Assembly (NCBI RefSeq): GCF_013402875.1 | Contig: NZ_CP058579.1 | Span: forward strand, 186,001-250,000 | DNA length: 64,000 bases | Source of the DNA: Halorarum salinum | GTDB lineage: Archaea; Halobacteriota; Halobacteria; Halobacteriales; Haloferacaceae | Direction: 5' to 3' | In this document: positions 1,058 through 31,547 of the stretch, piece after piece | Position numbering within the stretch: position 1 is the first letter of the stretch | Layout of the letters: every line of letters starts with the position of its first letter | Notes under the pieces: model-generated | The model's database searches: none | Told to the model about the DNA's origin: nothing | What the model saw: the letters and a program-made list of their open reading frames with translations, nothing else | Made by a program: the position numbers and the translations under genes

Positions 1058-4000
1058 CTACCTCTCCTCGAGGAGCAACGTGAGCAACTTCCGCTCGGCG
1101 ACCCGGAGGTGGTTGTTGAACGTCGGCTGGGTGATGCCGAGCCGGTCCGCGATCTCCTCGCCCGTGTTCGCGCGCGGCCACTCGAAGTAGCCGTTCAGGT
1201 ACGCGGTGCGGAGCACCTCGAGCTGGCGGTCGGTGAGCAGTTCCTCGAGTTCGGCGCCGAACGTCTGCCTGGAGCGGAGCGGGCGCTCCCGGGAGCGCCG
1301 CGCGAGCAGCTCCGCGCCCGCGTGCTCGGCCCGGAGGCTCTCGACGAACCCGCGCACGTCCGCCGGCTGGGGGAGTTCGACCCGCAGGCGCGTCTCGCCC
1401 CCCGTCGCCGTCAGCTCCCGGATGGCCCCCCCGAAGCCGGTGACGTGGGAGACGATCGTCGGCTCCGCGACCGTGACGACGATGAGGCCGTCGTCCGAGT
1501 CCACGACCGAGGAGGCGTGCTCGACGGCGACGGACTCCTCGAGGTACGTCAGCACCGACTCGAGGGGGACGTCGCTCACGGACAGGTACAGCATCGAGGT
1601 GCCGTCCGAGTGGGGGACCGCCCCCTCGAACGTCACGCGGCCGCCGACGCCGGCGGCGATCCGGCTCGGCAGGTCGTTCGACTCCGGGATCCGGACGTCG
1701 AGTTCGACGACGCTGTCGGAGAGCAACGCCCGCCTGCTCTCCCACGCGTCGAGCCCGTTCGCCGTCGCGGTGGCGACGCCCTCGAACAGTCGGTCGGACG
1801 GCTCGTCGAACGCTCCCGGATCGTCCGCACAGACGGTCAACACTCCGTACAGCGTGTCCCCGTGTCGGAGCGGGAGGCTGAGGACCGACCGGTAGCCGCG
1901 GTCGAGCAGTTCCCGGCGCCACTGCTCGTTCATCCCCCCGTGAGCGACGTTCGGGACGAGCACCCGGTCGCCGGTCCGCGCCGCCCGGATCGCGGGTTCG
2001 GTGCGGTCCTCCCCGAGCACGAGCGAGACGGCGTCGACGTAGCCGCGCTCGGTCCCGGCCCACGCTCGCGGGACGAGCCGCTCGTGGGTCGCGTCGAAGG
2101 TCCCGATCCAGGCGAAGTCGAACCGCCCGTCACCGACGAGCTCCTCACAGACCGCCTGCTGGAACTCCTCCCGCGTTCCCGCCCGTGAGCGTGCGCGACC
2201 GACGCCCAGAAGCGTGTCGAACGCCCGGTCGAGCCGGTCGAGCCGGTCCGCCCGCGACGAGAGCGCCGTCTCGCGCTCGCGGAGGTCGCCCGCGAGCGCG
2301 ACCCGGTCGAACGCCGCCTCCGCCATCGCCGCGAGCAGCGACGTCAGTCGTCGCGTCCGCCCGTCGACCGCCTCCTCCCCGGCCGCGTCGACGAGGAGCA
2401 CCCCGTAGCCGTTCAGGGGGAGGACCACCGACCGCCGGGTCGCTCCCTGGACCGCCCGGTTCGGCTCGACGACCCGCCCGTCGGTGACCGCCGGCTCCCC
2501 CCCGACGAACGCCTCCCAGACCGGCGACCCGTCGGCCGGCCCGACCGGCGGCGGCGTCGCCGCGTCGCCGGCCGCGGGCCGGGACGTCGTGACGGGACGG
2601 AGGACGTTCCCGTCCTCGTCGAACCGATACACCGTGGCCCGCTCCCGGTCGAGCAGGTCGGTCGCCGCCCGGCCGACGCGCTCACAGACCTCGACGTCCG
2701 TCTCCGCGGCCCCCAGTTCGCGGACCGCGTCGGCCAGCGCCGTCAGCGTCCGCTCGTGGCGCTCGCGCTCGGCGACGTCCCGGACCGTGCCGACGACCCC
2801 CGCGAACCCGTCCCGGTCCGGGGTCGTCGCCGCGAACCGGGCGGCCACCGGCGTCCGGCCGCCGTCGGCCCGTTCGACGGTCAGTTCCGTCCGGAGGAAC
2901 CCCCGACCCTCGGTCGTCAGTTCCCGACGGAGCGCGCCCGCGGCGGCACGTGGCCCGTCCGCGATGACGTTCGAGAGGTGCGCGCCGAGGAGTTCCTCGC
3001 GGGAGCGACCCGTCACGGCGACGAACTCGTCGTCGACCGCCACGAACCGCATCTCCCCGTCCAGGACGAAGAACCCGCCCTCCTGGGTGGTCGCGACGAG
3101 TTCGGACAGGCGCCGTCGCCGCTCCCACGCCGTCCGCTCGGTGACGTCCTCGAACCACACTACCGGACCGGCGTTCGAGGCGTATGCGTGGAGTTCGAAC
3201 CGCGCACCCGAGGGCGGGTACGCCGCCTCGAGGCTCGCCGGTTCGTCGGTCCCCGAAACCGCCCGGAACTCCCGGCGGAGCCGCGACTCGAAGCCGGCGG
3301 GGAACGCGTCGAACAGCGACTCCCCGACCAGTTCCCGTTCGTCGCGACCGAGCAGCGCGGCCGCGCGGTCGTTCAGGGCCGTGAACCGCCACTCCGCGTC
3401 GAGTTCGGCGTACCCCAGCGGGGCGCGGTCGACGGCGCGGCGGGAGGCCGACTCGAACCGCTGGCGGGCGAGGGCCGTCGAGAGGGCGGCAGCGACGCCC
3501 CGGACGAACGCGACGTCCTCCGACGGGGGCGGTCCCCCGTCGGTCGTGAGGACCTCCAGGACCCCCCACGGCCCGTCCGACGGTCCGACGGGGACGGCCA
3601 GGCCGCCGTGGACCTCCCGGTCGGGGCGGAGCGTCGGAACGGCCGACCACTCGCCGGTCGCCCGGTCGGGTTCGACGGCCGGTTCGCCGGACGCGAGCGC
3701 GCGGCCGCCGAGGCCGTCGACGCTCGCGGACGCCGTGACCGACCCGTCGGGCTCCTCGGTCCAGCCGACCGCACCCCTGAGTTCGAACGCGTCCTCGCCC
3801 AGTTCCAGCGCCGCGACGTACTCCGTGTCGAGCGCGTCGGCGACGACCCGCGTCGCCCGCCCGCAGGCCGTCGTGACGTCCGGCGCCCCGAGCGCGAACC
3901 CGCCGAATGCGGCGAGCGCGTCCCACCGCGCCCCCCCGTCGTCGGCGGTTCGCGTCCCTTCGGCGTCCCGTCGTCGGTCGTCGTCGGTCGTCGTCCCGCC

Positions 4001-4420
4001 GTCGGCGCGGACGATGGCGCCGCGAACCCGCTGCGGGAGCAGCGAGTCGGCCACTCCACCGTCGCCGAGCGTGACCACGTCGGTCGCGCCGGACGTGAGC
4101 GCCGCCTCGACGGCCCAGTCCGCGTCCGGCGGCACGACGAGCACGAACGGGAGATCCGGGTACTTCTCGCGGACGACCTGCAGGAGCTGGATGCCGTCCG
4201 GGCCCGAGGGCGACTGGGACGCCACGACGCAGTCGAACCCGTCGCCCGCCCCGACCCGATTCAGGGCGTCGGTCTCGTCGCGTTCCGCGACGACGGTCGC
4301 GCCCGCGAGCGCGCGTTCGACCGTCGAGGGGTCGAGCCCCCCGTCGGAGCCGGCGACGAGGAGGACGCGGCTGTCGGCGACGGCGGCGTCCTCGCGGCTG
4401 CCGACCGTTTCCGACGTCAT
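1058..4420 (-). CDS. Large Bat-like sensor-regulator (pseudo-receiver, GAF, PAS, PAS, GAF, GAF, BAT, HTH_10)
   Basis: A 1120-residue soluble multidomain regulator. In order I see a receiver-like domain (about 15-135), a GAF domain (170-320), two PAS domains (325-430, 435-555), two GAF domains (560-700, 735-890), a BAT domain (895-1050) and HTH_10 (1062-1120, ending RVAERKLLTLLLEER). The receiver-like domain has Ser at position 68, where the phospho-accepting Asp would sit, so it should not be phosphorylated in the normal way. No histidine-kinase domain is present: sensing appears to be coupled directly to DNA binding. The ATG at 4420 is preceded by a GGGGGGA purine tract and overlaps the stop of an 11-codon ORF (4417-4452). 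A 17-bp dyad promoter element lies upstream at 4482-4498. The position at the edge of the glycan cluster makes it a candidate cluster regulator, which is inference. Confidence 0.9.
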   Translation of the reverse strand: MTSETVGSREDAAVADSRVLLVAGSDGGLDPSTVERALAGATVVAERDETDALNRVGAGDGFDCVVASQSPSGPDGIQLLQVVREKYPDLPFVLVVPPDADWAVEAALTSGATDVVTLGDGGVADSLLPQRVRGAIVRADGGTTTDDDRRRDAEGTRTADDGGARWDALAAFGGFALGAPDVTTACGRATRVVADALDTEYVAALELGEDAFELRGAVGWTEEPDGSVTASASVDGLGGRALASGEPAVEPDRATGEWSAVPTLRPDREVHGGLAVPVGPSDGPWGVLEVLTTDGGPPPSEDVAFVRGVAAALSTALARQRFESASRRAVDRAPLGYAELDAEWRFTALNDRAAALLGRDERELVGESLFDAFPAGFESRLRREFRAVSGTDEPASLEAAYPPSGARFELHAYASNAGPVVWFEDVTERTAWERRRRLSELVATTQEGGFFVLDGEMRFVAVDDEFVAVTGRSREELLGAHLSNVIADGPRAAAGALRRELTTEGRGFLRTELTVERADGGRTPVAARFAATTPDRDGFAGVVGTVRDVAERERHERTLTALADAVRELGAAETDVEVCERVGRAATDLLDRERATVYRFDEDGNVLRPVTTSRPAAGDAATPPPVGPADGSPVWEAFVGGEPAVTDGRVVEPNRAVQGATRRSVVLPLNGYGVLLVDAAGEEAVDGRTRRLTSLLAAMAEAAFDRVALAGDLRERETALSSRADRLDRLDRAFDTLLGVGRARSRAGTREEFQQAVCEELVGDGRFDFAWIGTFDATHERLVPRAWAGTERGYVDAVSLVLGEDRTEPAIRAARTGDRVLVPNVAHGGMNEQWRRELLDRGYRSVLSLPLRHGDTLYGVLTVCADDPGAFDEPSDRLFEGVATATANGLDAWESRRALLSDSVVELDVRIPESNDLPSRIAAGVGGRVTFEGAVPHSDGTSMLYLSVSDVPLESVLTYLEESVAVEHASSVVDSDDGLIVVTVAEPTIVSHVTGFGGAIRELTATGGETRLRVELPQPADVRGFVESLRAEHAGAELLARRSRERPLRSRQTFGAELEELLTDRQLEVLRTAYLNGYFEWPRANTGEEIADRLGITQPTFNNHLRVAERKLLTLLLEER

Positions 4421-4481: not shown

Positions 4482-4498
4482 CTTATACGGCGAATAAG
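4482..4498 (-). promoter_or_regulatory. 17-bp dyad element (site 1), perfect palindrome half-sites
   Basis: On the minus strand the site reads CTTAT-TCGCCGT-ATAAG, a perfect inverted repeat of 5-bp arms around 7 bp. It lies 29 bp upstream of the leader ORF start at 4452. The right arm sits where a haloarchaeal TATA box would be for a leaderless transcript. It is one of about a dozen such elements in the window. Confidence 0.7.
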
Positions 4499-4566: not shown

Positions 4567-4583
4567 CTTACCGGTGACATAAT
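4567..4583 (+). promoter_or_regulatory. 17-bp dyad element (site 2)
   Basis: Reads CTTAC-CGGTGAC-ATAAT and continues AAAA. It lies 53 bp upstream of the small membrane-protein ATG at 4637. The extended right arm ATAATAAAA is a good TATA box, predicting transcription from about 4606 and a short leader. It forms a divergent pair with site 1, one per transcription unit. Confidence 0.65.
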
Positions 4584-5975: not shown

Positions 5976-6890
5976 CTACCGCTGCCGCCGTGAGACTGCG
6001 ACCCGTCCGGACGCCTCGAACTCCCCGAAGTCGCAGAACTCGTCGATGTTGTACTTCTTCTCGACGAACTGCTCCTCCATGAACCGGCGCGTTCGACCGA
6101 GCGTGGAGTCCTCGAGCGCCGACAGCCGCTCGACGAAGCTCGCGTCCTCCTCGCCCCAGAGGCCGGGGTGGGTGAGCACCTGCATCCGGTCCGGGAACCC
6201 GTCCGCCAGCGGCGGCTCGTCCCGCCATCGCTGGTTGGAGTCGCCCCGGTACGCGACGTCGGTGAAGAACCGCTCCTCGTAGGTGCTCTCGAAGCTCCGG
6301 AACGACCGGCGGAAGATCCACTCGGGCGGGCGGTGGAACGAGACGGCGCTCACGGGGTCGCTCGCGACCTCGGCGAGGATGCGCTGTTCGGCCCGGACCC
6401 GGTCGACGAGATCCTCCTCCGGCGGCTCGTCGTTCCAGTACTGGTGGGTGCTGAAGTGGAGTCCCACGTCGTGGCCCAGCTCCTCCAGCCGCGAGACGAT
6501 CTCGCGGTTCGGCTTGTGCTGGACGTTGTAGAACGGCGAGGTGAGCAGGAAGAAGTACGTCGCCTCGACGCCACGCTCGGCCTCCATCCGGGCGGTCCGC
6601 AGCGCCCTCCGGGGCGACCAGTCCACGTCGTGGCGGAGGACGAGGTCCCCGGACTCCAGCGGCTCGTGGTACCCCCGGAAGCGGTAGCCGTGCGAGCGCA
6701 GGCGGTCGAGGAACTCGCCGTACCAGTCGAACGTGAACGCCACGCCGGACCCGCCCGCGCCGGCGACGGTCGCGTCGGGCGCGCCGTCCCGCCCGGCCGT
6801 GCCGCCGTCGGTTTCGGCGGCGTCCGTCGCGTCGGACGCACCGGCCGCGGAGCCGCGGCCCTCCGACCCGTCCGCGTCGGTCCCCGTCAC
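5976..6890 (-). CDS. Polysaccharide-deacetylase-like protein
   Basis: A 304-residue protein. After an Ala/Gly/Asp-rich first 45 residues it has a NodB-type barrel: LVLRHDVDWSPRRALR carries the His-Asp-Val-Asp metal/catalytic cluster, followed by YFFLLTSPFYN, HDVGLHFSTHQYW and SFHRPPEW, as in glycan deacetylase-like proteins of polysaccharide loci. It likely removes N-acetyl groups from a surface glycan or is a relative that lost activity; I cannot show activity. There is no signal peptide, so action in the cytoplasm is implied. The GTG start at 6890 overlaps the stop of the acyltransferase gene (GTGA), so the two form an operon with translational coupling. Confidence 0.75.
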   Translation of the reverse strand: MTGTDADGSEGRGSAAGASDATDAAETDGGTAGRDGAPDATVAGAGGSGVAFTFDWYGEFLDRLRSHGYRFRGYHEPLESGDLVLRHDVDWSPRRALRTARMEAERGVEATYFFLLTSPFYNVQHKPNREIVSRLEELGHDVGLHFSTHQYWNDEPPEEDLVDRVRAEQRILAEVASDPVSAVSFHRPPEWIFRRSFRSFESTYEERFFTDVAYRGDSNQRWRDEPPLADGFPDRMQVLTHPGLWGEEDASFVERLSALEDSTLGRTRRFMEEQFVEKKYNIDEFCDFGEFEASGRVAVSRRQR

Positions 6891-7813
6891 GCCGAATCAC
6901 CCAGCGGGCGGGCGGGCGACCCGACGACGGTCGTCCCCGCGGGCACGTCCTCCAGCACCGCGGCGTTCATGCCGAGTTCGGCGTCGGCGCCGACGACGAC
7001 GTCCGTCGCGACCGACACCTGCGGGTGCACGGTGGTCCGCGCGCCGACGGTGGCGCCCCCGGCGAACCCGGAGCCGAACGCGACCGTGACGTCCTCGCCG
7101 ACCTCGACCTGGTGGGCGAGGTGGACGTTGCCGCTCAGCTTCGCGCCGCGACGGACGACCGTCTCGTCGAACACCGCCCGGTCGATCGAGCAGTTGGCGC
7201 CGACCGCGACGTCGTCCTCCAGGACGACCTCGCCGTCGTGTACCTGTCGGGAGAGGGAGTCGTCGTCCGTCCGGGCGAACCCGAACCCCGTCTCCCCGAG
7301 GACGGTTCCCGGCCCGATCGAACAGCCGTCGCCGATCGTGACGCAGTCGGCGACGTAGGCGTTCGCGCCGATCCGACAGCGCTCGCCGACCGTCGCGCCC
7401 GGTTCGACGACCGCCGACGGGTGGACCGTCGTCTCGGTCACCCCGTCGACGAAGAACTCGTTCGCGGCCTCGACGAACGCCGGCTTCGGGCGCTCGACGC
7501 GGACGAGCGTCCGCCCCCGGAGCGCCGGGATCGACCGCCCGCACACGACGACGCCCGCGTCGGACGCCCGGACCGCGTCCGGGTCGTCGTACGTGCAGAA
7601 CGCGAGGTCGTTCGGCCCGGCGTCCGCGAGGGAGCCGACGCCGGTCACCGTCGCCCCCGGCCCGGTCACCTCCGCGTCGAGGAACGACGCGAGTTCGCCC
7701 GCGTCGAGTCCGGTTCCCGTCCCGCCGGGGGCCCGGTCGCCGTCGGTGGCCCGACCACCGTCCGCGGGTCTGTCGCCGTCCGCCGGCCGCCTCGTGCGTG
7801 AGTCACCCGTCAT
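6887..7813 (-). CDS. LpxD-like hexapeptide-repeat acyltransferase
   Basis: A 308-residue protein with an N-terminal LpxD-like domain (about 25-115, SLADAGPNDLAFCTYDDP) and a left-handed beta-helix (115-300) of hexapeptide repeats such as VHPSAVVEPGATVGERCRIG and VEVGEDVTVAFGSG. A His in NVHLAHQVEVG matches the catalytic-His region of LpxD/LpxA. Bacterial LpxD acylates UDP-sugar amines for lipid A, which archaea lack, so the substrate here is more likely an amino-sugar nucleotide of the glycan cluster. The start ATG at 7813 overlaps the stop of a four-residue ORF at 7810-7824. The dyad element at 7854-7870 is the promoter. It overlaps the deacetylase-like gene downstream. Confidence 0.85.
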   Translation of the reverse strand: MTGDSRTRRPADGDRPADGGRATDGDRAPGGTGTGLDAGELASFLDAEVTGPGATVTGVGSLADAGPNDLAFCTYDDPDAVRASDAGVVVCGRSIPALRGRTLVRVERPKPAFVEAANEFFVDGVTETTVHPSAVVEPGATVGERCRIGANAYVADCVTIGDGCSIGPGTVLGETGFGFARTDDDSLSRQVHDGEVVLEDDVAVGANCSIDRAVFDETVVRRGAKLSGNVHLAHQVEVGEDVTVAFGSGFAGGATVGARTTVHPQVSVATDVVVGADAELGMNAAVLEDVPAGTTVVGSPARPLGDSA

Positions 7814-7853: not shown

Positions 7854-7870
7854 CTTATTGGGCCGTTAAG
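7854..7870 (-). promoter_or_regulatory. 17-bp dyad element (site 3)
   Basis: On the minus strand it reads CTTAA-CGGCCCA-ATAAG. The nearest downstream ATG on that strand (7824) is 29 bp away. It lies in the 66-bp gap between the membrane hydrolase gene and the acyltransferase, so the acyltransferase-deacetylase pair has its own promoter. Confidence 0.65.
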
Positions 7871-8467: not shown

Positions 8468-9517
8468 CTAGCTGCCTCCGCCGCCGTCGACGGAGACCCA
8501 GAGCTGGACGTGCCGGTAGGCGTTCTCCCGCGTCGGGTCCTGGGGCGCGTCGCCGCGGTAGAGGAGGTACTGCATGCGGAGGCGCTGGCCGGCGAACGGG
8601 GGCTGGGGTCGGTGTTCGATCCGCGCGGTCTCGCCGGGCGCGACCGTCCGGGTCTCGCGCGTGAGCTCCGCCTCCTCGGTCACGGTCGTCCCGTTCGCCG
8701 TCTCCTCGACGCGTTGGAGCTCCGCCACGACGGTGTACGACTGCTCCTCGCCCTCGTGGTTCCCGATCGAGACGTACAGGGGCTCGCCGTCACCGCCCGT
8801 CGTGAACTCGGTGGGGTAGCCGCTGGCGTCGAACTCGCCGTCGTCGGACTGCGTGACCAGGTAGAGCTCGGTGAACCCCTCCTCCTCCGTCGGGTAGACG
8901 TACGCGATGCCGACGCTGCTCACGAGCACGAGGACGCCCGCGACGAGAAAGAGGTTGAGGAGGAGCCCCCGGGCGTTCGTCGCCTCGAACGTCGCCGACC
9001 GCGAGAGGTTCCGGTCGTGGACGGTGAACGGGCTCACCGCCGCCCCGAGCAGGTGCGTGAGCGGCGGGACGCCCATCCGCTCGTCGTCCGGGAGTCGGAT
9101 CCGCCGGACGAACGCCAGCAGCGTGAGCGCGACCGTGAGCGGCGCGAGGACGAGCAGCGTCTGCCGTGCCCCGATGCCGCCGGTCGCGACCGACAGCGCG
9201 AGCACGACGGCCGGGACGATGGCGATGCTCGCGGCCACCGAGAGCCCGACCCGGACGGACGGCGGGAGCCCCTCCTCTATCACCCCGGAGGGGACGACCA
9301 CCCCGTCGTCGCCCGCCCGATTCTCCTTCCGGAGTCGGCGCTCGGGGTAGATCGCGGCGACGAGCGCGTACCCTGGGAGGAACAGCAGTATCGGCGCCAC
9401 TGCGGCTGTTCTGAGGGGCGATCCGCCGGGGCCCACGAGGACGGTCGCGGAGGCGACCGCCGTGAGCACCAGGACGACGAGCAGGTCGGTGGTCCACCTG
9501 CTGGTCCGCGTGTTCAT
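8468..9517 (-). CDS. DUF1616 family membrane protein
   Basis: With the ATG at 9517 this is a 349-residue protein. Four or five hydrophobic helices fill the first half (starting TTDLLVVLVLTAVASATVLV), followed by a transmembrane helix near 195-215 and an extracytoplasmic beta-rich domain (VTQSDDGEFDASGYP onward) with a pattern seen in DUF1616 proteins of haloarchaeal and methanogen surface-glycan loci. Function is unknown. A GTG at 9556 is in frame and lies 32 bp from the dyad at 9589-9605; it could be the real start of a leaderless mRNA and would add 13 residues. The gene is first in an operon with the membrane hydrolase. Confidence 0.8.
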   Translation of the reverse strand: MNTRTSRWTTDLLVVLVLTAVASATVLVGPGGSPLRTAAVAPILLFLPGYALVAAIYPERRLRKENRAGDDGVVVPSGVIEEGLPPSVRVGLSVAASIAIVPAVVLALSVATGGIGARQTLLVLAPLTVALTLLAFVRRIRLPDDERMGVPPLTHLLGAAVSPFTVHDRNLSRSATFEATNARGLLLNLFLVAGVLVLVSSVGIAYVYPTEEEGFTELYLVTQSDDGEFDASGYPTEFTTGGDGEPLYVSIGNHEGEEQSYTVVAELQRVEETANGTTVTEEAELTRETRTVAPGETARIEHRPQPPFAGQRLRMQYLLYRGDAPQDPTRENAYRHVQLWVSVDGGGGS

Positions 9518-9588
9518 CGCGAACGGCTTGCGGACGGAGAGGTAAAAACCCCCCACTCGCTTGTGCACCGAAACTCCCGAATTCGCGG

Positions 9589-9605
9589 CTTATAACCCCT
9601 CTAAG
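9589..9605 (-). promoter_or_regulatory. 17-bp dyad element (site 4)
   Basis: On the minus strand: CTTAG-AGGGGTT-ATAAG. It points at the DUF1616 operon, 32 bp from an in-frame GTG at 9556. It pairs divergently with site 5, which serves the aminotransferase operon. Confidence 0.6.
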
Positions 9606-9653: not shown

Positions 9654-9670
9654 CTTATCCGCACTATAAT
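9654..9670 (+). promoter_or_regulatory. 17-bp dyad element (site 5)
   Basis: Reads CTTAT-CCGCACT-ATAAT and continues AAA. It is 70 bp upstream of the leader ORF ATG at 9741, exactly the same distance as site 7 to its leader ORF at 12300. This spacing predicts a leader of about 45 nt rather than a leaderless mRNA. Confidence 0.7.
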
Positions 9671-9839: not shown

Positions 9840-10936
9840 CCGGGGAGGCGTCGATCGCCGACCCCGAACTCGGGGACGCGGCGATCGACCGCGTCGTCGA
9901 CGTGCTCGAGTCCGGCCAGCTCGCGGACGGCCCCGAGGTGCGGGCGTTCGAGTCCGAGTTCGCCGACTACTGTGCGGCCGACCACGCGGTCGCGACGTCG
10001 AACGGGACGACGGCGCTCCACGCGGCGCTGGAGGCGGTCGGCGTCGAGCCGGGGAGCCGCGTGATCACGACCCCGTTCTCGTTCGTCGCGACGGCCAACG
10101 CCATCAGACACGCCGGCGGCGTTCCCGTGTTCGCCGACGTCGACCCCGAGACGTACAACCTCGACCCCGACGGCGTCGAGGAGCTCCTCGAGGGCGACGA
10201 GCCGGTGGACGCGATCGTCGCGGTCCACCTCTACGGGCTGCCCGCGCCGATGGACCGCCTCGGCGAACTCGCGGACGCGTACGACGTCCCGCTCGTCGAG
10301 GACGCCGCGCAGGCCCACGGGGCCGAGTTCGACGGGACGCCGGTCGGCGCCATCGGCACCGTCGGCACGTTCTCCTTCTACCCCACGAAGAACATGACCA
10401 CGGGCGAGGGCGGGATGATCACGACCGACGACGAGGAGGTCGCGGAGGCCGCCTCCCGCTTCGTGAACCACGGCCGGGCGGCCGCGGGGTACGAGCACGT
10501 CGAACTCGGCCACAACTTCCGGATGACGAGCATGGCGGCCGCCATCGGCCGCGCGCAGCTCGGGCGGCTCGACGGGTTCGTCGAACGCCGCCGCGAGAAC
10601 GCGCGGATCCTCACGGACGCGCTCGCGGGGAGTCCCTGCGTCACGCCGGCCGAACCGGCGTACGCGAGACACGCCTACCACCAGTACACCGTCCGCTGCG
10701 GGAACCGGGACGGGGTGAAGGAGGCGCTGGCCGAGCGGGGCGTCGGGAGCGCGGTCTACTACCCGACGAACATCCACGACCAGCCCGCCTACGCGGGCGA
10801 CTTCGGCCGGGCGCCGACCGCCGAGCGAATCGCCGACGAGGTGCTCTCGCTGCCGGTCCACCCGAACGTCACCCCGGAAACGGCCGCGCACATCGGCGAC
10901 GTGCTCGCCGACGAGGTGGAGGTGGCCCATGTCTGA
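9836..10936 (+). CDS. DegT/DnrJ/EryC1/StrS-family sugar aminotransferase (WbpE-like)
   Basis: A 366-residue PLP-dependent sugar aminotransferase of normal family length. The PLP Schiff-base lysine is K185 in FYPTKNMTTGEGGMI; NGTTALHAAL near residue 55 and VEDAAQAHGAEF near 155 are family motifs. It would transaminate a keto-sugar nucleotide. The next gene is a Gfo/Idh dehydrogenase (8-bp overlap), and an acetyltransferase and two 6-dehydrogenases follow, so the best guess is amination of UDP-3-keto-GlcNAcA at C3, as WbpE does. The ATG at 9836 was chosen because the homology begins right after it and it overlaps the leader ORF stop. Confidence 0.92.
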   Translation: MTGEASIADPELGDAAIDRVVDVLESGQLADGPEVRAFESEFADYCAADHAVATSNGTTALHAALEAVGVEPGSRVITTPFSFVATANAIRHAGGVPVFADVDPETYNLDPDGVEELLEGDEPVDAIVAVHLYGLPAPMDRLGELADAYDVPLVEDAAQAHGAEFDGTPVGAIGTVGTFSFYPTKNMTTGEGGMITTDDEEVAEAASRFVNHGRAAAGYEHVELGHNFRMTSMAAAIGRAQLGRLDGFVERRRENARILTDALAGSPCVTPAEPAYARHAYHQYTVRCGNRDGVKEALAERGVGSAVYYPTNIHDQPAYAGDFGRAPTAERIADEVLSLPVHPNVTPETAAHIGDVLADEVEVAHV

Positions 10937-11924
10937 GGAGCCGCTGCGCGCAGGCGTGATCGGCGTCGGGAGCATGGGGCAGAACCACGCGCGCGTGTAC
11001 GACGAGATTCGGCCGACGACGCTCGCCGGCGTCTTCGACGTGGACGACGGGCGGGCCGAGACGGTCGCGCGCGAGCACGGGACGGCCGCGATGTCGCTTC
11101 CGGACCTGTTCGAGGCGGTCGACGTCGTCTCTGTCGCGGTCCCCACGGAGTACCACTTCGAGATGGCCCGCGAGGCCATCGAGCACGGCGTCGACGTGCT
11201 CGTCGAGAAGCCGTTCGTCGCCACCCCGGACGAGGGCGAGGAGCTCCTCGCCCTCGCGGAGCGTGCGGGCGTCACCGTGCAGGTGGGCCACATCGAGCGG
11301 TTCAACCCGGCGGTCGTCGCCCTCCGCGAGTTCGTCGACGATCTGGACGTCATCTCGGTCAGCGCCGAGCGGCTCGGCCCGCCCCTCGAGCGCGAGATCG
11401 ACGACAGCGTCGTCATGGATCTGATGATCCACGACGTCGACATCGTGCTCGACCTGGTCGAGGGCGAACTGGCCTCGATCGACGCCGTGGGCACGGAGGA
11501 GGGACGCTACGCGTCGGCGAACCTGGCGTTCGACTCCGGGGTCGTCGGGCACCTCACCGCGAGCCGCGTCACCCAGGAGAAGGTGCGCGGGCTGACCATC
11601 TCGGCCCGGGACTGCCGGGTCAAGGTCGACTACATCGACCAGACGGTCGAGATCCACCGGGCGTCCGCGCCGGAGTACCTCCGCGAGGAGGGCAACGTCC
11701 ACTTCCGCCACGAGAACCTCGTCGAGCGGGTGACCGTCGACCGCCGCGAACCGCTCAAGGAGGAGCTCCGGTCGTTCGCCGACGCCGCGGCGAACGGAAC
11801 CGAGCCCGTGGTGACCGGCGAGGACGGCCTCCGGGTGCTCGAGGCCACCTCGACCATCGACCGGGACGCGACCCGGTCGCGCCTCGAGCGCGCCGGCGTG
11901 CCCGTGAACGCCCGATCCGACTGA
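10929..11924 (+). CDS. Gfo/Idh/MocA NAD-dependent sugar dehydrogenase (WbpB-like)
   Basis: A 331-residue oxidoreductase with a Rossmann start GVIGVGSMGQNHARVYDE (residues 8-25), the conserved VLVEKPFVATPDEGEEL (EKP motif near residue 95) and VGHIERFNPAVVAL, followed by the alpha/beta substrate domain. These dehydrogenases oxidise or reduce sugar nucleotides. In this operon the expected reaction is oxidation of UDP-GlcNAcA at C3 to give the substrate of the aminotransferase, as WbpB and the Methanococcus homologues do. The start overlaps the aminotransferase stop by 8 bp, so the two are tightly coupled. A second, distant paralogue is at 60412-61506. Confidence 0.9.
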   Translation: MSEEPLRAGVIGVGSMGQNHARVYDEIRPTTLAGVFDVDDGRAETVAREHGTAAMSLPDLFEAVDVVSVAVPTEYHFEMAREAIEHGVDVLVEKPFVATPDEGEELLALAERAGVTVQVGHIERFNPAVVALREFVDDLDVISVSAERLGPPLEREIDDSVVMDLMIHDVDIVLDLVEGELASIDAVGTEEGRYASANLAFDSGVVGHLTASRVTQEKVRGLTISARDCRVKVDYIDQTVEIHRASAPEYLREEGNVHFRHENLVERVTVDRREPLKEELRSFADAAANGTEPVVTGEDGLRVLEATSTIDRDATRSRLERAGVPVNARSD

Positions 11925-12189
11925 CGTCGCCGGGGTCGCCACGAGCCGACCGTTCCCGACCGGACCGAACTCGTTCTGCGCGACCGGGAACGTCGTGAGC
12001 GAACCGAACCCGCCAAGACCGACCGTAGACGGCCCCGAGCAGCCCCGAATCGCCCGAGAACCGGACCCGCCGTAGGGACGAGGCCGGGCCGAAGTCCGCA
12101 GGGACTGGACCGGGCTCGAGTCCGCCGCGAACCCGACCGATCCGCCGAGTCCCCGTGGAGTCGGTAGCCGCGAAACGGCCGTATCGAGG

Positions 12190-12206
12190 CTTATCACACC
12201 ACTAAG
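12190..12206 (+). promoter_or_regulatory. 17-bp dyad element (site 6, tandem)
   Basis: Reads CTTAT-CACACCA-CTAAG. It starts exactly 23 bp before site 7 and has no gene of its own on the minus strand, so it probably serves the same operon as a second binding site. Its right arm lacks the AT extension of the TATA-like sites. Confidence 0.6.
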
Positions 12207-12212
12207 CGCGCG

Positions 12213-12229
12213 CTTACCCGAACGATAAT
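12213..12229 (+). promoter_or_regulatory. 17-bp dyad element (site 7)
   Basis: Reads CTTAC-CCGAACG-ATAAT followed by GAAA. It lies 70 bp upstream of the leader ORF ATG at 12300, the same as site 5 to 9741. It is the likely core promoter site of the acetyltransferase/dehydrogenase/glycosyltransferase operon. Confidence 0.7.
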
Positions 12230-12299
12230 GAAAGGGGTGGGGGACGGACGGCCGACAAGCCTCGCGGCCCGACCGGGGGTCACGCGAGGACCCACATCC

Positions 12300-12410
12300 A
12301 TGAACGTACAGACGAACTCAGCCGACTCGCGGGACGCGCACGTCGCCGCCCCGCAGCACGGTCGGACAGGGAGGCCGAACGGACCCCGCCCCGCGGCCCG
12401 GCCATCATGA
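12300..12410 (+). CDS. 36-codon leader ORF before the acetyltransferase operon
   Basis: ATG at 12300 encodes MNVQTNSADSRDAHVAAPQH and on to residue 36, a hydrophilic peptide ending in a Pro/Arg-rich stretch. Its TGA (12408-12410) overlaps the acetyltransferase ATG (12407). A GCGAGGA tract upstream could bind the ribosome. The acetyltransferase ATG itself has no ribosome-binding sequence, so its translation may depend on this ORF. No homology recognised. Confidence 0.45.
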   Translation: MNVQTNSADSRDAHVAAPQHGRTGRPNGPRPAARPS

Positions 12411-12991
12411 CCGGCTACGTCGCCGGAACCGACAGCCAGATCGACGCGGACGCGACCGTCGGCTACCCCGACGAGGGGGACGGCGAGAACACGGTGATCG
12501 GGGCGAACGCGACGGTCCGCGCCGGCACGATCATCTACGACGGCGTGGACATCGGCGACGACTTCACGACGGGTCACAACGCGGTCGTCCGCGAGGACAC
12601 CCGCATGGGGGACGACGTCCTCGTCGGCTCGGAGACGGTCGTCGACGGCCGGTGTACCATCGGCTCGGAGGTGAGCATGCAGACGGGCGTCTACGTCCCG
12701 CCGAAGACGAGGATCCACGACGGCGTCTTCCTCGGGCCACACGCCGTGCTGACGAACGACCCCTACCCGCTCCGGCAGGACGTCGACCTCGAGGGGCCGA
12801 CGATCCACGAGGGCGCCTCCGTCGGGGCGAACGCGACGGTGCTCCCGGGCGTGACCGTCGGCGAGAACGCGTTCGTCGCCGCCGGCGCCGTCGTTACCGA
12901 GGACGTGCCCGCCGACACGCTCGCGGTCGGCGTGCCGGCCGAGCACGAACCGCTCCCCGACGACCTGGAAGGGGGGAACCTCGACCGATGA
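12407..12991 (+). CDS. Hexapeptide-repeat acetyltransferase (WbpD-like)
   Basis: A 194-residue left-handed beta-helix protein made of hexapeptide repeats from residue 5 to 185 (IGANATVRAGTIIYDGVDIG, VGENAFVAAGAVVTEDVP), ending GVPAEHEPLP. Size and pattern match the N-acetyltransferases that acetylate the 3-amino group of UDP-amino-uronic acids. The motif GPHAVLTNDPYP near residue 105-115 (His-Ala-Val-Leu-Thr-Asn-Asp-Pro-Tyr-Pro) closely resembles WbpD-type enzymes. The ATG overlaps the leader ORF stop; the stop overlaps the next gene's ATG (ATGA at 12988). It would act in the cytoplasm on the aminotransferase product. Confidence 0.88.
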   Translation: MTGYVAGTDSQIDADATVGYPDEGDGENTVIGANATVRAGTIIYDGVDIGDDFTTGHNAVVREDTRMGDDVLVGSETVVDGRCTIGSEVSMQTGVYVPPKTRIHDGVFLGPHAVLTNDPYPLRQDVDLEGPTIHEGASVGANATVLPGVTVGENAFVAAGAVVTEDVPADTLAVGVPAEHEPLPDDLEGGNLDR

Positions 12992-14394
12992 GCTCGGACC
13001 TGACGTCGACGGCCGCCGACGGGGCCCCGCACGTCTACGGATCGAGCGACGCGCCGGACGAACTGAACGCGGCCCTCACCGGCGGCGAGGTTCCCGTCGC
13101 CGTCTACGGACTGGGGAAGATGGGGCTCCCCCTCGCCACGGTGTACGCGGAGGTGACCGGGAACGTGACCGGCGTCGACGTCGACCCGGGCGTGGTTCGG
13201 CGCGTGAACCGCGGCGGGAGCCACGTGACCGGCGAACCGGGGCTCGACGACGCCGTCGGCGAGGCGGTGGCCGCGGGCGCGCTGACCGCCACCGGCGACG
13301 GCGAGGCGGCCGCCGAGGCCGCGCGGCTCCACGTCATCATCGTGCCGACCCTGATCGACGAGGGGAACGAACCGGACCTCTCGGTCGTGACGGAGGTGGC
13401 CGGGACGATCGCCGCCGGACTCGAACCCGGCGACATGGTCGTCGCGGAGTCGACGCTCCCGCCCCGGACCTGCCGGGACACCCTCCTCCCGCTGCTCGAG
13501 TCCGAGGGCGGCGTCCCGCGCGAGGAGTTCGGGCTGGCGTTCTGCCCGGAGCGGACCTCCAGCGGGCGGGCGCTCGAGGACATCCGCGGCGCCTACCCGA
13601 AGATCGTCGGCGGCGTCGACGACGAGAGCGGCCGGCTCGCGGAGCTGATCTACGGGAACGTCAACTCCAACGACGTGATCCGGGTCTCGGACGCGACGAC
13701 CGCCGAGGCAGTGAAGGTGTTCGAGGGGGTGTACCGCGACGTGAACATCGGGCTCGCGAACGAGCTCGGGCGCCACGCGGGCGAACTCGACGTCGACGTG
13801 ACGGAGGCCATCGAGGCGGCCAACACACAGCCGTTCTGCGAGATCCACCGGCCCGGCGCCGGCGTCGGCGGTCACTGCATCCCGTACTACCCGCACTTCC
13901 TCATCCAGGAGTTCGACGTCGACTCGCGCCTGATGGAGACCGCGCGGGACGTGAACGAGGCGATGCCCGCCTACACCGCGAACGCGGCGCTGGACGGCCT
14001 CCTGAACGAGGGGGTCGACCCCGCGGACGCGTCGGTGCTCGTGCTCGGACTGACCTACCGGCCCGGCGTGGACGAACTCCGCGCGACGCCCGCGCTCCCG
14101 ATCGTCGAGGAACTCTCCTCGGCCGGGACGGACGTGGACGCCGTCGACCCCGTGACCGACGACGGCGAACCGTTCGAGCGCGCCGGCGCGGCGGTCCGCG
14201 ACCTGGACGACGTCGGCGACGGGACGTACGACGCCGTCGTGCTGGTCACCGACCAGCCCGCCTTCGAGTCGCTCGACGTGCCCGCGCTCGGCCCCGAGGA
14301 CCGCGACCTGGTCGTCGTCGACGGCCGGCAGGCGCTGACGGAACTGCGTGGCCGCGACGGCGTCGCCTACCGGGGGGTGGGCGTCAATGTCTGA
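12988..14394 (+). CDS. Nucleotide-sugar 6-dehydrogenase (UDP-ManNAc dehydrogenase type)
   Basis: A 468-residue UDP-sugar dehydrogenase. The NAD site is VYGLGKMGLPLATVYAEVTG (near 38-57); TLPPRTCRDTLLPLL and FCPERTSSGRALEDI follow; the catalytic Cys is C297 in GVGGHCIPYYPHFLIQEF. The central and C-terminal domains are complete (LGLTYRPGVDELRATPAL). It oxidises C6 of a UDP-N-acetylhexosamine to the uronic acid in two NAD-dependent steps. Compared with the second dehydrogenase that follows, the Cys loop is IPYYP rather than IPVDP, placing it nearer the archaeal UDP-ManNAc (WecC-type) group. The ATG at 12988 overlaps the acetyltransferase stop. Confidence 0.9.
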   Translation: MSSDLTSTAADGAPHVYGSSDAPDELNAALTGGEVPVAVYGLGKMGLPLATVYAEVTGNVTGVDVDPGVVRRVNRGGSHVTGEPGLDDAVGEAVAAGALTATGDGEAAAEAARLHVIIVPTLIDEGNEPDLSVVTEVAGTIAAGLEPGDMVVAESTLPPRTCRDTLLPLLESEGGVPREEFGLAFCPERTSSGRALEDIRGAYPKIVGGVDDESGRLAELIYGNVNSNDVIRVSDATTAEAVKVFEGVYRDVNIGLANELGRHAGELDVDVTEAIEAANTQPFCEIHRPGAGVGGHCIPYYPHFLIQEFDVDSRLMETARDVNEAMPAYTANAALDGLLNEGVDPADASVLVLGLTYRPGVDELRATPALPIVEELSSAGTDVDAVDPVTDDGEPFERAGAAVRDLDDVGDGTYDAVVLVTDQPAFESLDVPALGPEDRDLVVVDGRQALTELRGRDGVAYRGVGVNV

Positions 14395-15712
14395 GAGCCT
14401 CACGTCCGAGGCCCTGCGACCCGCCGTCGAGTCCGCGACCGTCTGTGTCGTCGGACTCGGCTACGTCGGCCTCCCCCTGAGCCTCGGGTTCGACGAGGAG
14501 GGGCTGGACGTCGTCGGCTTCGACGTCGACCGCGACAAGGTGGAGACGCTCGCGTCGGGCGAGGACGTCACCGGCGACCACGGCGACGAGGCGGTCGAGT
14601 CGAGCGGGATCGAGTTCACGGCCAACCCGGCCCACGTCTCCCAGGCCGACTACGTCGTCGTCACCGTGCCGACCCCGGTCGACGACACCAAGAACCCGAA
14701 CCTGGACTTCGTCGAGGCGGCGGGGCGGACGATCGGCGAGTACGTGTCCGAGGGCACGACGGTCGTGCTCGAGTCGACCGTCTACCCCGGCGTGACCCGC
14801 GAGGTGCTCGGGGAGACGATCGAGGAGACGTCCGGGCTGGAGATGGGCGAGGGGTTCAACCTCGGCTACTCCCCCGAGCGGCTCTCGCCGGGCGTGGAGG
14901 GTCGCGGCCTGCGCGACGTCGTGAAGATCGTCAGCGGCGACACCGAGGCGACGCTCGCCGAGGTGGCGGCGCTGTACGAACTCGTCGTCGACGCCGGCGT
15001 CTACCGCGCCCCCTCGATCGAGACGGCCGAGGCCGCGAAGGTGATCGAGAACGTCCAGCGCGACGTCAACATCGCGCTGGTGAACGAACTCGCCATCGTC
15101 TGTGACCACCTCGGGCTGGAGAGCGAGGAGGTGCTCGACGCGGCCGGGTCGAAGTGGAACTTCCACGACTACCGGCCCGGGCTGGTCGGCGGCCACTGCA
15201 TCCCCGTCGACCCGCTCTACCTCGCGCACGGCTCCCAGCGGGCCGGCTACTCGCCGGACCTCATCCTGACGGGCCGCGAGGTCAACGAGTACATGCCCAA
15301 ACACGCCGCGGAGCTGGCGCTTCGTGCGCTCAACGACAGCGGCCGGGTGCTGAAGGACAGCCGGCTGCTCGTCCTCGGGCTCGCATACAAGCCGAACGTC
15401 GGCGACATCAGGACCTCCGAGGTCGACGGCGTCGTCCGGGAGCTCGCCACCTACGGCGTCGACGTCGCCGGCCACGATCCGCACGCGGACGACGACGCGA
15501 TGGCCGAGTCGTTCGGCATCGAGATCCAGCCGGAGCGGCGCTTCGAGGGGTTCGACGGGATCGTGGTCGCGACCGCCCACGACGAGTTCGACGACCTCGA
15601 CCTCGACGCCGTCGCCGCGGAACTGAACGACGAGCCGGTGCTCGTGGACGTCGCCGGGCAGTTCGACGGCGACGCGGCCGCGAAACACGGGTTCCACTAT
15701 GAGTGTCTCTGA
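14387..15712 (+). CDS. Nucleotide-sugar 6-dehydrogenase (WbpA/TviB-like)
   Basis: A 441-residue UDP-sugar dehydrogenase. CVVGLGYVGLPLSLGFDEEG (residues 20-39) binds NAD; TVYPGVTREVL and YSPERLSPG follow; the catalytic Cys is C271 in GLVGGHCIPVDPLYL, preceded by KWNFHDYRPG, a signature shared with WbpA/TviB UDP-GlcNAc dehydrogenases. GLAYKPNVGDIRTSEV is the C-terminal domain motif. The expected reaction is UDP-GlcNAc to UDP-GlcNAcA, the first step of the diacetamido-uronate route whose later enzymes sit just upstream. The ATG at 14387 overlaps the preceding gene by 8 bp. Assigning the substrate rests on the motif and context. Confidence 0.9.
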   Translation: MSESLTSEALRPAVESATVCVVGLGYVGLPLSLGFDEEGLDVVGFDVDRDKVETLASGEDVTGDHGDEAVESSGIEFTANPAHVSQADYVVVTVPTPVDDTKNPNLDFVEAAGRTIGEYVSEGTTVVLESTVYPGVTREVLGETIEETSGLEMGEGFNLGYSPERLSPGVEGRGLRDVVKIVSGDTEATLAEVAALYELVVDAGVYRAPSIETAEAAKVIENVQRDVNIALVNELAIVCDHLGLESEEVLDAAGSKWNFHDYRPGLVGGHCIPVDPLYLAHGSQRAGYSPDLILTGREVNEYMPKHAAELALRALNDSGRVLKDSRLLVLGLAYKPNVGDIRTSEVDGVVRELATYGVDVAGHDPHADDDAMAESFGIEIQPERRFEGFDGIVVATAHDEFDDLDLDAVAAELNDEPVLVDVAGQFDGDAAAKHGFHYECL

Positions 15713-19961: not shown

Positions 19962-20552
19962 ATGACCATCGCTGCAAGCACGACGACCAACCACGACCTG
20001 GACGTCGTGGAGTCAGAAGACCGGGACGAGGGGAGGCTCACGGAGGACCAGATCTTTCACGTGCTCCAGAACCAGCGGCGACGGTGGGTTCTGAAGTACC
20101 TCGAGGGGCGCGAGGGGAAGGTCCGGATGGGGGACATCGCGGAGCAGGTGTCCGCGTGGGAGCACGACACGACCGTGCAGGCGCTCACGTCCAAGGAGCG
20201 CCAGCGCGTGTACATCCCGCTCTACCAGAACCACCTGCCCAAGCTCGACGAGGAGGGCATCATCGACTACAACCAGAGCCGGGGGATCGTCGAGCGGACG
20301 CCGCGGGCCGACCAGCTCGACGCGTACCTCGACCCCTTCGAGGGCGACTCCGGGGAGGAGACGGCGTCGTTCCCGTGGGAGCTCCCCTACCTCGGCGTCG
20401 CCGGCGCGGGGGCGGCGATCGTCGTGGGGAAGAGCCTCGGCCTCCCGCTGTTGGCGATGCTGTCGGGCTCGCTCGTCGGCGTGCTCATCCTCCTGCTGTT
20501 CACCGTTACGACGGTGATCCACGTCGCGAGCGAGCGCATGCTCGACCAGTAA
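19962..20552 (+). CDS. Membrane-anchored winged-helix protein (haloarchaeal DUF7344-like)
   Basis: A 196-residue protein. Residues 25-125 form a helix-rich winged-helix-like domain (EDQIFHVLQNQRRRWVLKYL, then GDIAEQVSAWEHD and LPKLDEEGIIDYNQS, the recognition region and wing). Two hydrophobic helices at 142-160 and 163-185 would anchor it to the membrane. This arrangement (HTH-like domain plus two C-terminal helices) is common in haloarchaea as predicted regulators of unknown target. It is alone in its transcription unit, between the glycan operon and a convergent lipoprotein gene. It is a good candidate to sense envelope state and control the cluster, but nothing in the sequence proves it. 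Confidence 0.75.
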   Translation: MTIAASTTTNHDLDVVESEDRDEGRLTEDQIFHVLQNQRRRWVLKYLEGREGKVRMGDIAEQVSAWEHDTTVQALTSKERQRVYIPLYQNHLPKLDEEGIIDYNQSRGIVERTPRADQLDAYLDPFEGDSGEETASFPWELPYLGVAGAGAAIVVGKSLGLPLLAMLSGSLVGVLILLLFTVTTVIHVASERMLDQ

Positions 20553-21729: not shown

Positions 21730-21746
21730 ATTACCGGGTTGATAAA
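21730..21746 (-). promoter_or_regulatory. 17-bp dyad element (site 8)
   Basis: On the minus strand: TTTAT-CAACCCG-GTAAT followed by AAC. It is 29 bp upstream of the DsbA-like lipoprotein ATG, so a leaderless mRNA is expected. Confidence 0.6.
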
Positions 21747-22110
21747 CGCTCTCGCGCCGTTGCGGAGCCCCGCATCTCCCCTCGAAACAGTCCCGATACG
21801 CGGGAGCGCCGCTTCCACGGGGAGGATTAGCGGATCGATGGCGGGACGGTCGACCCCGCCACAACGGAGCCCTCGCGTGCACCAAGCGGTGTTCCGTCGT
21901 CCGGGCGAACGCTCCCCGCCGCCCGGGCGACGACGGGCCATCCCTCCGAGCGACGGCCCCGCGTCGGAGGCCGGAACCCGGAGTCAGTGCGGCGGTCGGT
22001 CCGGGCGGAACGACGGCTTAGCCAACCTATAGTAATGGACCGACGGGGGGAACGTGGAAGCGAATCCGCCGACACCCGGCGATTCGACGTCCGGAGAACG
22101 ATCAAAAATC
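21747..22110. other. Divergent intergenic region before glmS
   Basis: Between the two dyad elements (sites 8 and 9) lie about 270 bp with no convincing gene on either strand. From 22034 to 22110 is the presumed untranslated leader of the glmS operon; it contains no clear stem-loop of ribozyme or riboswitch size. Confidence 0.5.
22017..22033 (+). promoter_or_regulatory. 17-bp dyad element (site 9)
   Basis: Reads CTTAG-CCAACCT-ATAGT followed by AA. It is the only promoter-like element upstream of glmS, 77 bp before the leader ORF ATG at 22111. Both arms deviate by one base from the best sites. Confidence 0.5.
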
Positions 22111-28628: not shown

Positions 28629-29810
28629 TTATCTGTCACGGTCCACACGTTCCCCGGGAAGGGTCGTCGCGCCGGCCGAGAGCGTCACTCCCGGATCGAG
28701 ACTGGTGTTGATGCCCGTGCTCGCCCCGGGGCCGAGGACGGCGCCGAACTTCCGGCGGCCGGTCGAGACCCGCTCGCCCTTCACCGTCAGTTCGACCGGG
28801 CGGTCGTCGTGCCGGAGGTTCGCCACGTTCGTGCCGGCGCCGACGTTGACGTCCCGCCCGAGCACGCTGTCGCCCACGTACGAGAGGTGGTTCACGTTCG
28901 CGCCCGCCATGAGCACGCTGTTTTTCACCTCGACCGCGTGGCCGACCGAGACGTCCTTCCCGACGAGCGTCGCCCCGCGGACGTAGGCGTTCGGCCCGAC
29001 GCTCGCGCCCGAACGGATCAGCGCGGGCCCCTCGATCACGACGCCGTCGTCGACCCGCGCGCCGGGTTCGACCACGACGTCGCCGTGGAGCGTCGCGTCC
29101 TCGCTCACCGTCCCCTCGACGCGCCGTTCGAGGTCGCCCAGCTGCCACTCGTTCGCCTCGAGCAGTTCCCACGGGCGCCCGACGTCGAGCCAGCCGTCCA
29201 GTTCCACCGGCGTCACGTCCACGGAGTCGATGCTGCGCGCGAGGACGTCCGTCAACTCGCGCTCGTCCCGCTCGCTCGGCGGCACGTCGAGCCAGTCGGT
29301 CGCGGCCGCCGGGAAGACGTACGCGCCGGCGTTCACCAGGGTGCTCGGGGGGTCGGCGGGCTTCTCGACGATGTTCGACACCGACCCGCCGTCGGTGGCC
29401 AGCACGCCGTACGAGGTGGGGTCCTCCCGGTGGACCGTGGCGACGCTCGGGCCGGCCTCGAACAGCGTCCGGACGCCGGCGGGGTCACAGAGGTTGTCGC
29501 CGTTGAGCACCGCGAACTCGCCGTCGAGGTGGGGGGCGGCCGCGCGGACGGCGTCGGCGGTGCCGTCCTGTTCCTCCTGGACGGCGTAGCGCACCGGGAC
29601 GCCCTCGTACGTGGAGCGGAAGTAGTCCCTGACCAGGTCCGCCTCGTAGCCGACGACGAGGACGAGTTCGTCCGCGCCGGCCGCGACGGCCGCGTCGGCG
29701 ACGTGCGCGACGAGCGGCCGGTCGGCGACCGGGAGCATCGGCTTGGGAAGCGATTCGGTCAGCGGTCGCATCCGCGTCCCGCGGCCCGCGGCCAGAACGA
29801 CTGCTTGCAT
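28629..29810 (-). CDS. glmU: Bifunctional sugar-1-phosphate nucleotidylyltransferase/acetyltransferase (GlmU-like)
   Basis: A 393-residue enzyme. An N-terminal nucleotidyltransferase domain (1-225) has LAAGRGTRMRPLTESLPKPM (residues 7-26), YAVQEEQDGTADAVRAA, the LNGDN metal site and VEKP; a C-terminal left-handed beta-helix (235-385) has repeats such as VVVEPGARVDDGVVIEGPA and NANHLSYVGDSVLGRDVNVG. This is the archaeal GlmU arrangement. It would acetylate glucosamine-1-phosphate and activate it with UTP. Its promoter is dyad site 10, 29 bp upstream of the ATG. GlmM is encoded just upstream on the same strand, with its own dyad promoter. UDP-glucose or dTDP-sugar pyrophosphorylase activity is the main alternative. 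Confidence 0.88.
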   Translation of the reverse strand: MQAVVLAAGRGTRMRPLTESLPKPMLPVADRPLVAHVADAAVAAGADELVLVVGYEADLVRDYFRSTYEGVPVRYAVQEEQDGTADAVRAAAPHLDGEFAVLNGDNLCDPAGVRTLFEAGPSVATVHREDPTSYGVLATDGGSVSNIVEKPADPPSTLVNAGAYVFPAAATDWLDVPPSERDERELTDVLARSIDSVDVTPVELDGWLDVGRPWELLEANEWQLGDLERRVEGTVSEDATLHGDVVVEPGARVDDGVVIEGPALIRSGASVGPNAYVRGATLVGKDVSVGHAVEVKNSVLMAGANVNHLSYVGDSVLGRDVNVGAGTNVANLRHDDRPVELTVKGERVSTGRRKFGAVLGPGASTGINTSLDPGVTLSAGATTLPGERVDRDR

Positions 29811-29839: not shown

Positions 29840-29856
29840 ATTATTGAGCCGATAAG
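29840..29856 (-). promoter_or_regulatory. 17-bp dyad element (site 10)
   Basis: On the minus strand: CTTAT-CGGCTCA-ATAAT followed by AAA. The ATG of the GlmU-like gene is exactly 29 bp away, so the mRNA should be leaderless. It is among the best matches to the consensus. Confidence 0.75.
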
Positions 29857-31285: not shown

Positions 31286-31313
31286 GCTCCCCCAACCGGA
31301 GGGGGGCGGCCTT

Positions 31314-31330
31314 ACTATACGGGCGATAAA
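31314..31330 (-). promoter_or_regulatory. 17-bp dyad element (site 11)
   Basis: On the minus strand: TTTAT-CGCCCGT-ATAGT followed by AAGG. The glmM ATG is 28 bp away. It is divergent to site 12, which lies 200 bp away. Confidence 0.65.
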
Positions 31331-31530
31331 CCGTTTCGGCCGCCGAAACGGTCCGAAAGCGCGGGTCGCCGGGGGCCCAGTGATCGGCCTCGTCGAGCCG
31401 TGGCGGGGACGTGAGGCGCCCTCACCGGCGGCCCCGTTCGGGGGGCCGGTGCCCCGGGCCGGCCGGCCGGCCCGGCGGCTCGCACGCACGCACGAATCAC
31501 CCACTATTGGTCCGTCGTCCCGACCCGTCG

Positions 31531-31547
31531 CTTATTCGCAGTATAAT
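31531..31547 (+). promoter_or_regulatory. 17-bp dyad element (site 12)
   Basis: Reads CTTAT-TCGCAGT-ATAAT followed by AAA. It is 31 bp before the ATG of the rhodanese lipoprotein. Its spacer resembles that of site 1 (TCGCCGT on the minus strand). Confidence 0.75.

Follow-up and report, generated by a model that had tools for sequence, protein, structure and literature searches.

A conserved pair of dyads 23 bp apart as a candidate tandem operator for a winged-helix regulator of haloarchaeal polysaccharide genes

The acetyltransferase/UDP-sugar dehydrogenase operon described here is preceded by two dyads spaced 23 bp start to start. From sequence comparison, we give a probability of about one in two to the reading that they form a tandem operator for a dedicated regulator of the winged-helix type that binds as two cooperating dimers (most likely the DUF7344 protein encoded at 19962..20552, +), and that the outcome of binding is activation. 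An earlier note on the window (the whole stretch of 64,000 nucleotides that was analysed) had pointed to tandem dyads ahead of this operon, and both were confirmed, at 12190-12206 and 12213-12229. The distal dyad, site 6, is of the form GCTTA-N9-TAAGC (12189..12207, no strand assigned): GCTTATCACACCACTAAGC is a perfect inverted repeat at 12189-12207, its core CTTA-N9-TAAG (CTTATCACACCACTAAG, 12190-12206) is a perfect 17-base palindrome, and the exact extended form is found once in the window (0 expected). The proximal dyad, site 7 (CTTA-N9-TAAT, 12213..12229, +), reads CTTACCCGAACGATAAT, has one mismatch to CTTA-N9-TAAG and overlaps the promoter, containing a TATA-like element, ATAATGA (12225..12231, +), recognised from the logo of 27 oriented sites. 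At 10.5 bp per turn, 23 bp corresponds to 2.19 turns, so the description of this spacing as close to two turns holds, but the two sites share a face of the helix only roughly, site 7 being turned about 70 degrees off that of site 6. Site 6 indeed has no gene of its own, as the earlier note said: no minus-strand gene lies upstream of it, the oxidoreductase gene found there (10929-11924) being on the plus strand, and a role as divergent promoter of a missing gene was rejected for lack of such a gene. Chance pairing was likewise rejected on the expected counts, on the offset test in relatives described below and on genome-wide spacing, sites 6 and 7 being the only exact pair 17-40 bp apart in the whole genome.

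We looked for site 6 in close relatives and for the same spacing at orthologous operons. The congener G001 retains both dyads with the 23-bp spacing. A degenerate but recognisable dyad lies at exactly -23 before the orthologous operon in Halorarius litoreus (L067:9789/9812), Halegenticoccus tardaugens (L068) and G129 (L156), and G133 and G114 have such a dyad, again at exactly -23, before a small-TM-ORF/UDP-sugar dehydrogenase operon, which makes five lineages besides the congener. Beyond Halorarius and Halegenticoccus two further families are represented, and the 23-bp pair thus spans several archaeal families. The spacing is not universal: no pair stands before the acetyltransferase operon in G021, G337, G308 or G065, and in G019 it measures 21 bp rather than 23. 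When 28 offsets were tried at 10 operon heads, with G000 and G001 excluded and up to two mismatches accepted, five of the ten heads passed at -23 and a single one of the 270 cells elsewhere did (G019 at -21). Exactly-23-bp close pairs occur six times in 29 island stretches, in every case before the operon discussed here. A relaxed search gave further matches for this operon in G190 and G172, and for glmS in G243, G145, G055, G153, G208, G158, G169 and G173; the wide pair search, with its tolerance of two mismatches, was dominated by chance (a reversed control scored as high or higher), and its matches were followed only in polysaccharide islands and are preselected for 23 bp. At unselected glmS heads the distal dyad lies at 22 bp (G133 and G114) or 24 bp (G065). 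A conserved and helically phased spacing, the mark of a tandem operator, is therefore present at 22-24 bp, and at the level of sequence these comparisons show the geometry, the conservation and the near restriction of the pair to one kind of operon. Six related genomes of genus g28 (L101-L106) also have in common an exact pair of CTTA-N9-TAA dyads 23 bp apart, and three of the six are among the genomes that have no core sites.

The anatomy of the motif bears on what the dyads may be. When 27 sites are oriented by the downstream gene, their logo reads CTTA-N8-ATAATAA, with a TATA-like box on the right and, at a fixed distance of exactly 8 bp upstream, the CTTA left half. CGAAA, the BRE consensus of the haloarchaeal core promoter (Haloferax volcanii dRNA-seq, PMC4983044), was not seen between CTTA and ATAATAA in the 27 sites, where the spacer is A-poor. 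The gap of 9 is specific both in the window (11 sites at a tolerance of one mismatch, against 0-1 at gaps of 7, 8, 10 and 11) and in the islands of relatives (94 exact sites, against 0-3 at the same other gaps). Across 11 site pairs of G000 and its congener G001, the half-sites share 98% of their bases, the spacers 70% and the left flanks 48%. Many sites have an ATG 27-29 nt beyond their box-side end, as for leaderless genes; the acetyltransferase operon, which has a leader, does not show this distance. Such an oriented, promoter-like motif at its usual distance from a start codon is what one would see if a TFB/TBP paralogue recognised the sites as nothing but a specialised core promoter, site 6 then being a second and weaker promoter of the acetyltransferase operon. 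We consider this very improbable, however, as the motif clusters in polysaccharide islands and the distal dyads, in the lineages that have the pair before this operon, lack the ATAATAA extension but retain the two half-sites in register. Site 6 itself deviates from the oriented core motif, with C at position 13 and CG at positions 18-19. Because the TATA extension of the proximal dyad is consistently missing from it, the distal dyad is probably not merely a core promoter. The argument of the earlier note that the dyad is more than a core promoter thus survives for the distal copy, and is weakened by the proximal one, which includes the TATA-like box; judged by the motif, "core promoter" tells half the story for the sites other than the distal dyad.

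The merging of half-site and box also bears on the sign of regulation. The same tandem operator and the same kind of regulator could serve repression, with dimers on CTTA-N9-TAAK competing with TBP for the half that is the TATA box and the distal dyad tightening the block at the precursor operon. Nearly every single site has its right half-site within the TATA-like box, and an operator that borrowed its right half from the box would produce an identical fixed register. On the other hand, no BRE is kept, although one would be expected of a promoter with strong activity when unoccupied, and the second dyad lies upstream and not over the start. As a complete account we hold repression to be possible, at odds well short of even. 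On the sign taken alone, we lean to activation, since no BRE is seen and the second dyad lies upstream; repression by covering the TATA half is nearly as likely, and the way in which the proximal dyad overlaps the box would fit repression at least as easily.

The sites are numerous and clustered. CTTA-N9-TAAG occurs, with at most one mismatch, 11 times in the window against 0.73 expected, and the 4.26 Mb genome contains about 21 distinct CTTA-N9-TAA[G/T] sites, 14 of them within one 48 kb polysaccharide island (contig 1, 169-218 kb; Pfam annotation). This clustering is mirrored in G001, and across the order CTTA-N8-ATAATAA sites gather in polysaccharide islands, a distribution that reveals, as far as sequence can, a regulon. 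The motif scan and the comparison with G001 placed single dyads on the minus strand before a PAS/GAF-HTH_10 gene (1058-4420; dyad 4482..4498), gene 6887-7813 (7854..7870) and a DUF1616 gene (8468-9568; 9589..9605), and single dyads that are also core sites on the plus strand before a GT2 gene (4567..4583) and a DegT aminotransferase gene (9654..9670). Core sites likewise precede a nucleotidyltransferase gene (28629-29810; 29840..29856, -), a rhodanese-domain gene (31531..31547, +) and, as CTTA-N8-ATAGTAA, glmS (22017..22033, +), which in the window has no distal dyad. Two core-like sites on the minus strand recur in G001: TTTA-N8-GGTAATAA before a thioredoxin-like gene (21730..21746), which falls outside the pattern count of the earlier note, and TTTA-N8-ATAGTAA at the phosphohexomutase gene (31314..31330). 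The latter, together with the conserved ATGTTCGGAACGAG (window 31285-31330, -), suggests that this gene may start near 31285, downstream of its listed start at 31504. Elsewhere, back-to-back sites 23 bp apart were observed at L078:15050-15095 (-), and also in G001, the distal one being the apparent core promoter of a divergent gene; at L154:7062-7143 an array of CTTA/TTAA half-sites with a period of about 11 bp lies between a transferase-like and an HTH_10 gene.

The candidate regulator matches the Pfam family PF24035 at 6.7e-30, its 103.7 bits lying far above the gathering score of 27.8, and it is therefore a member. The AlphaFold model predicts a winged helix with confidence and, after it, two helices that we take as membrane helices; its solved structural neighbours are YodB, RosR, HlyU and MarR-type regulators. 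Searches with the protein gave no sequence match in the PDB (best E 0.99) and no NCBIfam model. A DUF7344 gene is found in or beside nearly all the site-bearing islands examined, in several cases adjoining the UDP-sugar dehydrogenase gene. In a tree, 17 of 18 DUF7344 proteins from site-bearing islands cluster (two changes; none of 500 shuffles was as low), apart from the proteins of acetyltransferase islands without sites, and the branch that holds all 17 is weakly supported. Most of these site-linked proteins share EHDTT...RQRVYI...NQSRG in the DNA-binding domain, including the wing. In the window's family a close homologue (E <= 1e-40) is present in all 14 genomes that have at least two sites and in one of the 79 others (Fisher 1e-15), and in family f7 sites and homologue also co-occur (p 9e-16, cut-off 1e-43); the tables were transcribed by hand, and the genomes are related, so that both p-values overstate independence. 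A non-regulatory island gene co-occurs with the sites to a similar degree, DUF7344 homologues are also present in acetyltransferase islands without sites, the examined stretch of Halorarius has only a divergent one, and the eight haloarchaeal genomes counted hold 19-59 DUF7344 matches each. On tree and co-occurrence, the protein at 19962-20552 is the best candidate for the regulator of the dyads. An HTH_10 (Bat-like) regulator could bind them instead, for example the PAS/GAF protein 1058-4420 or the product of 138-914. Both are encoded in the island of the window, and HTH_10 genes are present in several other islands; site 4482 precedes gene 1058-4420, and the G021 homologue of 138-914 carries a core site in its promoter. 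The linkage is nevertheless less consistent, no HTH_10 gene being found in the examined stretches of the site-bearing genomes G114, G337 and G065, and we think this substitution improbable. As a separate observation, in genomes across the order PAS/GAF-HTH_10 genes often directly precede a short DUF7344 gene (G000:C1:1511308/1511739, G129:C2:79938/80610).

Downstream of the tandem dyads, a short leader ORF of 36 amino acids read from the sequence (12300..12410, +) overlaps by its stop the start of the hexapeptide acetyltransferase gene (12407..12991, +; Pfam Hexapep 3.5e-26), the first main gene of the operon, followed by two UDP-sugar dehydrogenase genes (12988..14394 and 14348..15712, +; Pfam UDPG_MGDP_dh, the second also TIGR03026). 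In eight relatives the leader ORF encodes a small protein with a single TM segment, which has been lost in G000 and G001. A hairpin in the predicted 5' UTR (stem CCTCGCG/CGCGAGG, 12260..12289, +) is no more stable than shuffles in the window (z -0.6); it has a counterpart at the equivalent place in all ten heads folded, with z from -0.04 to -3.9, and was rejected as the main signal on these uneven statistics.

Returning to the tandem operator, we infer that two DUF7344 dimers would occupy the two dyads, about two helical turns apart, and aid each other's binding, one dyad being enough at most other promoters of the island. As the TATA-like box is kept and the A-poor spacer has no BRE, TBP/TFB probably engage these BRE-less promoters with the help of the bound regulator, and the extra distal dyad would raise occupancy at a sugar-precursor operon. 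The membrane helices may tie the regulator to the cell surface; if so, a single protein could perhaps carry a membrane signal straight to a promoter. More broadly, we tentatively propose, at a little under even odds, that a membrane-anchored DUF7344 group reads TATA-merged CTTA-N9-TAAK dyads in an order-wide polysaccharide regulon, with tandem operators of 22-24 bp mainly at sugar-precursor operons. One group of DUF7344 would thereby gain a candidate DNA target, a regulon in cell-surface polysaccharide synthesis and a conserved operator, all open to testing in a tractable haloarchaeon, and the sites suggest a kind of promoter whose TATA box also serves as one half of the sequence that a regulator binds.

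Neither tandem operators nor winged-helix regulators are new as such. In bacteria, cooperative dimers bind tandem operators made of two palindromes that precede a single operon at a distance of about two turns from each other; here, by contrast, the TATA box of an archaeal promoter falls within the proximal palindrome. Haloarchaea have upstream activating sequences, as in Bat/bop and GvpE/gvp, in which the activator site lies directly upstream of BRE/TATA; those sequences differ from ours, and the site there is separate from the TATA box with which it is merged here. In a literature search that was thin on subscription journals, no paper was found to name the DUF7344 family, and no description was found of the motif, its merging with TATA, the order-wide polysaccharide regulon or the link to DUF7344. 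The sites resemble the haloarchaeal BRE/TATA core promoter (PMC4983044) in having an AT-rich TATA-like box at leaderless-gene distance, but they lack its CGAAA BRE, carry an extra CTTA 8 bp upstream and lie mainly in polysaccharide islands. As for the protein, the DUF7344 model is alike in fold to RosR (6qfd; Z 9.5, rmsd 3.3 over 89) and to YodB of the YodB/HxlR kind (5hs9; Z 9.5, rmsd 3.5 over 87), whereas it differs from RosR, YodB/HxlR and MarR-type regulators in giving no sequence match in the PDB, in its Pfam status as a family of unknown function and in its two C-terminal membrane helices.
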